Source: a virus. From it: DNA of 30,296 nt. The position numbers were made by a program, and so were the translations under genes. Location of the stretch: positions 1-30,296 of IMG/VR virus record IMGVR_UViG_3300030333_002107; one strand, given 5' to 3'. A model generated the notes under the pieces. That model was not told the origin of the DNA and made no database searches. It saw nothing but the letters and a program-made list of their open reading frames with translations. Positions 28,126 to 29,401 of the stretch are shown here, piece by piece (positions within the stretch are counted from its first letter, which is position 1; the number at the start of each line of letters is the position of its first letter).

Positions 28126-28542
28126 TTAATTAATATTAATAAACTTCGGTTTTTCTTCGTCTGGAACTTCGACATTTAGTTTTATTACTAATAATCCGTT
28201 TTCCATTGAAGCATCTTTTATCTTAACATATTCGCCAAGAGTAAAGATTCTACGAAAGTTTTTACTCGAAATGCCTTTGAATATGAACTTTTCATCATCA
28301 GCTAGATTATCTTTGCCTTTACCTTCAATAGTAAGAGTTCTGTCATCTTGCTTTACACTAATGTTGCTCTTATCCCAGCCAGCTAAATCCATTTCGATTC
28401 TATACTGTTCTTCGCCATTCTTAATTATGTTATAGCGAGGATAGTTTCCTGCTGTGCCGTGATTGGCAAGTTCATGTTTCATTCGGTCAAAACCGAGAAA
28501 TAGCCTGTCAAAGTCGGCTAGACTTCCTAATGTGTTTACCAT
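28126..28542 (-). CDS. hsp20: Small heat-shock protein, Hsp20/alpha-crystallin, 138 aa
   Basis: Holdase chaperone. The alpha-crystallin domain runs from YPRYNIIKNGEEQYRIEMDL to the ENGLLVIKL motif (the 'GxLxI' strand), ending VPDEEKPKFININ. About 138 residues is normal. The preferred start is ATG 28542, seven bases after AAGGAG; ATG 28545 is also possible. It has a long structured leader: promoter at 28761-28789, an RNA hairpin region, a terminator and two tandem hairpins next to the ribosome site. It could be used for capsid folding or stress during infection. Confidence 0.94.
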   Translation of the reverse strand: MVNTLGSLADFDRLFLGFDRMKHELANHGTAGNYPRYNIIKNGEEQYRIEMDLAGWDKSNISVKQDDRTLTIEGKGKDNLADDEKFIFKGISSKNFRRIFTLGEYVKIKDASMENGLLVIKLNVEVPDEEKPKFININ

Positions 28543-28555
28543 CATTTTTCTCCTT

Positions 28556-28597
28556 GCACCCTTATCGGAATGCGCTTTTGCTCCCTTATCGGTAAGC
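28556..28597 (-). promoter_or_regulatory. Tandem 18-base hairpins upstream of the hsp20 ribosome site
   Basis: Two hairpins of 18 bases, 28597-28580 and 28573-28556, are spaced 24 bases start to start. Both contain CCGATAAGGG. The stem arms are GCTT/GAGC in the first and GCAT/GTGC in the second, so the third pair changes from T-A to A-T with pairing kept. The second ends one base before AAGGAG. Location and paired changes point to an RNA element that regulates translation, perhaps a thermometer or a protein-binding site. Confidence 0.6.
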
Positions 28598-28613
28598 GTT
28601 AATATCATCTGAC

Positions 28614-28643
28614 AAAAAAACCCGACCACTGGTGGAAAGTGGT
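28614..28643 (-). terminator. Terminator-like hairpin in the hsp20 leader
   Basis: Stem ACCACT (28643-28638) with AGTGGT (28630-28625), seven-base loop, CGGG, then a seven-base T tract on the - strand. It stands 70 bases before the hsp20 start and would give partial termination or attenuation. Confidence 0.55.
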
Positions 28644-28754
28644 GCTCCAACCTCGCCCTCGGAAAGTGTGTTTCCTACTCGTGCCAGACATAAAGAAGTC
28701 GGTTTTGTTATTGCGGTCCGACTAGCTTCCGCTAATTGAATAAATTCCAATTCA
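28614..28754 (-). ncRNA. Candidate structured leader/small RNA, about 140 nt
   Basis: A transcript from the 28761-28789 promoter would run about 140 bases before a terminator-like hairpin (28643-28625, stem ACCACT/AGTGGT, then seven Ts at 28620-28614). Inside are stems AGTCGG/CCGACT and GGAAA/TTTCC, and no coding frame over seven codons from the first ATG. It may be a small RNA or a transcription attenuator controlling hsp20. Five GGA triplets are present. No known RNA family was recognised. Confidence 0.45.
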
Positions 28755-28760
28755 TTATTT

Positions 28761-28789
28761 ATTATATCAAAATATGACCACCTTGTCAA
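28761..28789 (-). promoter_or_regulatory. Strong promoter of the hsp20 leader
   Basis: TTGACA (28789-28784), 17-base spacer, TATAAT (28766-28761) on the - strand, with AAAAATAGTTC upstream. An ATG follows five bases after the -10 box, but its frame ends after seven codons, so the product is probably a leader RNA rather than a protein. Confidence 0.9.
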
Positions 28790-29372: not shown

Positions 29373-29401
29373 TTGACAAATACTGTTTATTTTGATATAA
29401 T
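29373..29401 (+). promoter_or_regulatory. Strong rightward promoter, leaderless
   Basis: TTGACA (29373-29378), 17-base spacer, TATAAT (29396-29401) on the + strand, with AAAATAGTTC upstream. The ATG of the 51-aa gene is at 29408, seven bases after the -10 box, so the mRNA should begin at the ATG. It drives the HTH and bS21-like genes. Confidence 0.93.

Follow-up and report, generated by a model that had tools for sequence, protein, structure and literature searches.

Why does the small heat-shock gene of a marine phage carry two small hairpins of the same design directly in front of its ribosome site? The question is raised by the window (the whole stretch of 30 296 nt of viral DNA analysed here), where the following features were located:

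28580..28597, minus strand: twin hairpin 1 (GCUU / A bulge / CC / GAUAA loop / GG / GAGC)
28556..28573, minus strand: twin hairpin 2 (GCAU / U bulge / CC / GAUAA loop / GG / GUGC)
28550..28555, minus strand: Shine-Dalgarno (SD) sequence AAGGAG, immediately downstream of hairpin 2 and part of neither stem
28126..28542, minus strand: hsp20, small heat-shock protein of 138 aa, phrog_432 match

The hsp20 product belongs to the small heat-shock (alpha-crystallin-type) family (phrog_432 Hsp20, E 1.8e-35); an alternative start, ATG at 28545, lies three bases upstream. In each twin hairpin an outer stem of 4–5 bp is followed by a single bulged base on the 5′ side, then by two C-G pairs and a loop of GNRA type, which is GAUAA in the window's clade. 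The window's outer stems have four pairs, the fourth being U.G in both hairpins, and the two copies are spanned by a 21-nt direct repeat (86% identical, spacing 24). The first-pass annotation had placed two tandem 18-base hairpins before hsp20 with the ribosome site outside the stems, and both statements hold on the minus strand, AAGGAG lying past hairpin 2; its description of the hairpins got the tandem stems right and overlooked the two C-G pairs further in, the single bulged base and the fact that GAUAA forms the loop. The gap of one base that it gave between hairpins and ribosome site is correct for AGGAG and wrong for AAGGAG, which abuts hairpin 2 (28556, then 28555). The compensatory T-A to A-T swap between the two stems is real and falls at the third pair (U-A to A-U). 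The 18-mers of the window fold at −4.4 and −4.5 kcal/mol, and 13–19 of 200 shuffled sequences were equally stable, so that the support from a single genome is modest.

It is the covariation among relatives that settles the reality of the twin hairpins. The same pair was found in hsp20 relatives on uncultured viral contigs and on contigs found through the upstream leader; roughly one hundred different leaders of uncultured phages have twin hairpins in front of hsp20, and the base changes in them are matched. The design of the hairpins was constant across 33 distinct leaders, while the sequence of the outer stem varied on both sides: bulge and GNRA-type loop are kept, outer-stem sequence is free. 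Covariation was assessed in 51 diverse dereplicated twin leaders (set A3). Across them 96.1% of cells were paired, versus 66.3% after shuffling and at most 47% for slid structures; there were 209 double-change cells versus 50 in shuffles, and the covariation score was 0.79 versus 0.19. The search pattern had preset only the C-G cores and loops, and this for part of the leaders; therefore, the covariation of the outer stems was not built in. A covariance model made without the window detected the window's element with 37.8 bits (E 6.5e-12, the tool's E-values being rough). Selection on RNA structure, proposed earlier from the window along with a covariation analysis of related phages as its check, is strongly supported by these 51 leaders, and we regard the twin hairpins as a real RNA element with near certainty. 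Distant relatives have GAAA, GUAA or GCAA in place of GAUAA, and the latter may be read as GNRA plus one extra base. The class of loop matches within every leader: 9 were penta/penta, 86 tetra/tetra and none mixed.

The element follows hsp20. In loci collected by a protein search blind to RNA, the twin model R1 had matches in 75 of 80, always directly upstream of hsp20; in the five misses (L004, L169, L174, L203 and L204) the contig ends ≤50 nt before the gene. The protein-blind DNA pattern consisted only of AGGAG and two CCGAAAGG cores, hsp20 playing no part in it, and gave at least 120 stretches in IMG/VR. Among the matches listed, 79 of the 104 newly fetched loci precede hsp20 as judged by a sequence motif, as does L332 by eye, and most of the remaining listed matches read as collagen-like or G+C-rich coding repeats. 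The pattern thus hit hsp20 genes for the most part, many of them very divergent. Searching 190 and 185 cellular genomes of two classes with the twin model returned three matches (L431, L432 and L433), none of them a twin leader before hsp20; the filters were strict and could have removed weak matches. Among cultivated phages, blastn with this region found nothing matching the leader. We consider it very probable that the twin hairpins act on translation of hsp20.

The hairpins share one leader of ∼210 nt, at the head of a long one-strand run of genes, with another folded RNA. This roughly 125-nt structured RNA, module A (28607–28732, minus strand), begins immediately after a perfect promoter:

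28761..28789, minus strand: promoter TTGACA-17-TATAAT, 12/12 matches, TG before the −10; kept in all module-A relatives
28698..28732, minus strand: H-type pseudoknot of module A, two helices with an A-rich linker between
28732–28729 / 28716–28713, minus strand: pseudoknot helix P1, GCGG / CCGC
28722–28718 / 28702–28698, minus strand: second pseudoknot helix, GUCGG / CCGAC
28607..28689, minus strand: junction of module A, helices P3–P5
28689–28682 / 28614–28608, minus strand: P3, GUCUGGCA / UGUCAGA
28675–28671 / 28665–28661, minus strand: P4, GGAAA / UUUCC
28643–28639 / 28629–28625, minus strand: P5, ACCAC / GUGGU

Conserved motifs of the junction are CACGAGUA, GAGGGCGAGG, GGAG, UCCACC and CGGG; the invariants of module A are CACGAGUA, GAGGG, GGAG, CCACC and GGG. 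In 40 sequences module A had 110 double-change cells versus 36 in shuffles. It had no Rfam match and was not found by blastn in cultivated phages. A put-like or riboswitch-like role is possible: like the put RNA of HK022, module A is a folded RNA right after a strong promoter, heading a long operon. Homology to put was dropped, no sequence similarity being seen in HK022, and so was a bacterial origin, as a GTDB pattern scan for the core of module A yielded 41 matches that were chance G+C-rich coding sequence. In the window genome only, P5 with the seven U that follow (28612–28643, minus strand) resembles an intrinsic terminator, which could attenuate the operon; the U-run is not kept in relatives, and we rejected this assignment. 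Further 12/12 sigma-70-type promoters are present at 29373–29401 (plus strand) and 25769–25741 (minus strand).

Their common leader invites the reading that the hairpins form the 3′ portion of a single large riboswitch- or put-like RNA that includes module A and acts on the whole operon. The parts, however, occur separately: in L032 module A is present without hsp20 and without twin hairpins, and in L167, L171 and L217 hsp20 and its twin hairpins stand behind an unrelated upstream leader. A single large RNA is thereby largely refuted, and we give it almost no credence; because each part occurs without the other, the twin hairpins go with hsp20, and module A goes with the promoter or the operon. 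In L167, L171 and L217 (about 1750–1945) module A is replaced by an apparently structured leader (GTTGGCACTCGTTAAAATGCCCC...). At 950–1110 of L032, a further set of strong hairpins comes after module A, and a 28-aa reading frame stands where hsp20 would be; next is what reads as an endolysin gene.

RNA thermometers are common before hsp20 genes, and a classical one, with heat melting hairpin 2 and so exposing the ribosome site, would be one mechanism for this locus. Here the SD lies beyond the stems. By reading, the U(U/C)GCU anti-SD motif is absent from the window leader, which had no ROSE match in Rfam at E ≤ 5; no thermometer was matched in 16 loci carrying twin leaders, and the scans of window and relatives gave nothing at the twin hairpins. 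Thermodynamic prediction put the openness of the SD at ∼0.6 across twin leaders, nearly flat from 10 to 45°C, compared with ∼0.33–0.47 in cultivated ROSE-like leaders and ∼0.1 in ibpA of E. coli and Pseudomonas, and both hairpins are predicted to stay formed at 37–45°C. In favor of a thermometer, the window alone has a predicted openness that climbs from 0.47 at 10°C to 0.80 at 37°C, single-leader predictions being variable. A third hairpin or a long-range partner of the SD was also sought; no partner was common, the pairing being divided between the upstream and the coding side. Together with the SD-hiding hairpins counted below, these results make a thermometer very unlikely as the mechanism of the twin leader.

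The same predictions would suit a passive element: two stable hairpins would hold the ribosome site in single-stranded form and shield the mRNA, and with the thermosensor lost hsp20 would be expressed constitutively. The hairpins are predicted to be formed at 0.92 and 0.91 at 37°C (module-A set), the effect of temperature is small and the SD mostly open. The stable first hairpin of Pseudomonas ROSE, suggested to aid folding or message stability (PMC3669281), offers a precedent. Mere stability, however, needs neither a bulge fixed two pairs below the loop, nor invariant C-G pairs, nor a second copy, and we judge a passive role rather unlikely.

Thermometers do enter the picture through sister phages. 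Cultivated marine phages have a different two-hairpin leader before hsp20: hairpin I is bulged, and YYGCU of hairpin II is paired to the SD. Such SD-hiding hairpins were found in 72 of 73 leaders of the protein-based IMG/VR sample (marine T4-like phages) and in 9 of 10 cultivated ones, versus 8 of 109 twin leaders; shuffled controls had them in 14–26 of 73 and 1–2 of 109. Conversely, twin-type pairs were present in 96 of the 109 twin leaders, in none of the 73 or the 10 ROSE-like leaders and in no shuffle. Hairpin I with a one-base bulge occurred in all 73 sister leaders, but also in about half of the shuffles. The Rfam model ROSE_3 (RF02523) matched three cultivated records with 69, 34 and 27 bits; one (Pseudomonas phage Y7, possibly host sequence) exceeded the curated threshold, and two were below it. 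ROSE-like two-hairpin leaders appear to be nearly universal before hsp20 of marine T4-like phages (L351–L430, 1–90 nt upstream; L333–L344); most of them score under the ROSE_3 threshold, and we found no description of them.

The short ROSE-like thermometer of Pseudomonas ibpA, ROSE_3 (PMC3669281), resembles the twin leader in having two hairpins near the start of a small heat-shock gene. Its hairpin I, in Rfam 8 bp, a bulged G, 3 bp and a 4-nt loop, has the architecture that each twin hairpin shares: an outer stem is followed by one bulged base on the 5′ side, a short inner stem rich in C-G pairs and a small loop, the hairpin being stable. The twin leader differs in that U(U/C)GCU is absent, the SD is outside hairpin 2 and hairpin 2 repeats the design of hairpin I; unlike the SD hairpin of ROSE_3, the twin hairpins are predicted to be heat-stable. 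The ROSE-like leaders of marine T4-like phages likewise have the gene, the position and the bulged hairpin I in common with the twin leader and differ by the SD-hiding hairpin II. In L386 (R1 match, 29.1 bits) a twin-like GNRA-loop hairpin I is combined with a ROSE-like hairpin II. The early mention of thermometers, not supported as to mechanism here, was thus apt in that hairpin 1 has the architecture of ROSE_3 hairpin I and sister phages have ROSE-like leaders. We infer common descent of hairpin I in twin and ROSE-like leaders, hairpin II having been exchanged in one direction or the other. Loops of hairpin I vary among sister phages (UUCG, AUAA), and loop-specific recognition across all phages was ruled out, as cyanophages carry UUCG; because of this variation, any binding of hairpin I would not be through the loop alone.

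The window phage itself has a DNA polymerase ∼45% identical to those of Aeromonas and Proteus phages, which we take to be T5-type, and encodes a split NAD ligase and SbcCD-like proteins. Its closest cultivated Hsp20 match is 41%, in a phage with a ROSE-like leader. Related phage contigs carry a glutamine riboswitch (L265, 3663–3721, 47.6 bits) and a tRNA gene (L111, 1632–1704), respectively.

We tentatively read the twin pair as a conserved element acting in cis to control translation of phage hsp20, an operator derived from a ROSE-like leader, with a likelihood a little short of even. Two bulged GNRA-type hairpins would sit directly upstream of a ribosome site predicted to be open, hairpin I of the ROSE-like leader having been retained and a second one built alike having taken the place of the thermosensing, SD-hiding hairpin II. 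A protein probably binds the pair beside the SD and represses or tunes translation. That the pair is a protein operator at all we hold to be slightly favored. The first-pass annotation had offered a protein-binding or a duplicated regulatory site; the duplicated site fits best, and protein binding is plausible.

Operator hairpins for some other phage or host RNA-binding protein, such as an N-like peptide or a phage translational repressor, offer one variant. With one base extruded, GAUAA could adopt the fold of GAAA, and GAAA is the loop that relatives carry; boxB hairpins also have GNRA-fold pentaloops, and a bulge with a short stem and loop resembles known phage operators. Boxb and coat-protein operator hairpins are likewise small phage hairpins with GNRA-fold or bulge features; for boxB the likeness is one of loop shape only. 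On the other side, the element accompanies hsp20 across divergent phages and behind differing upstream leaders; such tracking suggests a factor encoded alongside hsp20, or else general machinery, and an unrelated binder seems improbable.

As the protein partner of the operator we favor Hsp20 itself, with odds somewhat under even. The analogy is E. coli IbpA, which binds its own 5′ UTR and represses its own translation; this self-repression depends on an aromatic residue at position 34 (Y34) and needs R93, not replaceable even by K, R93K abolishing activity (PMC10474464). In the phage, free chaperone would stop its own synthesis, while chaperone occupied with damaged protein would permit it. 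Protein binding, the identity of the protein and repression are what we infer here.

Both systems have a small heat-shock protein, a structured leader (a ROSE element in E. coli) and an equivalent of Y34: position 34 was Y in 106, F in 2 and H in 2 of 110 twin-leader Hsp20s. When these 110 were compared with 86 ROSE-leader Hsp20s and all columns ranked by separation, IbpA position 36 separated best (R in 108/110 versus P in 83/86) and position 93 third best (K in 110/110 versus R in 76/86). Both positions are linked to the self-repressing activity of IbpA, which has P36 and R93; the essential arginine of an IbpA-type autoregulator is replaced by K in every twin-leader protein. Judged from these sequences, the changes at 36 and 93 fit an altered RNA pocket; loss of IbpA-type recognition would look alike, and with K93 in all, given the inactivity of R93K in IbpA, recognition may equally be lost. 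Independent repeats of the 36/93 switch were looked for in a tree; the twin-leader proteins form what is essentially a single clade, so that the changes of leader and of residues amount to about one event. One could speculate, with considerable doubt, that a ROSE-like thermometer was rebuilt into a phage-specific translational operator, a double protein-binding site co-evolving with a changed Hsp20 RNA pocket (36, 93); synthesis would then be set by chaperone load, not by temperature.

The twin leader is absent from Rfam 15, and the open-licence papers searched, including work on small heat-shock proteins of marine viruses, contain no mention of such a leader. Among marine phages this leader RNA is widespread, and its covariation is very strong. 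The presence of twin and ROSE-like leaders in one gene family makes it possible to study a change of control from sensing heat to being, apparently, independent of it; and if it is true that Hsp20 binds, the recognition of its own mRNA by a small heat-shock protein, a question open even for IbpA, would become directly testable.
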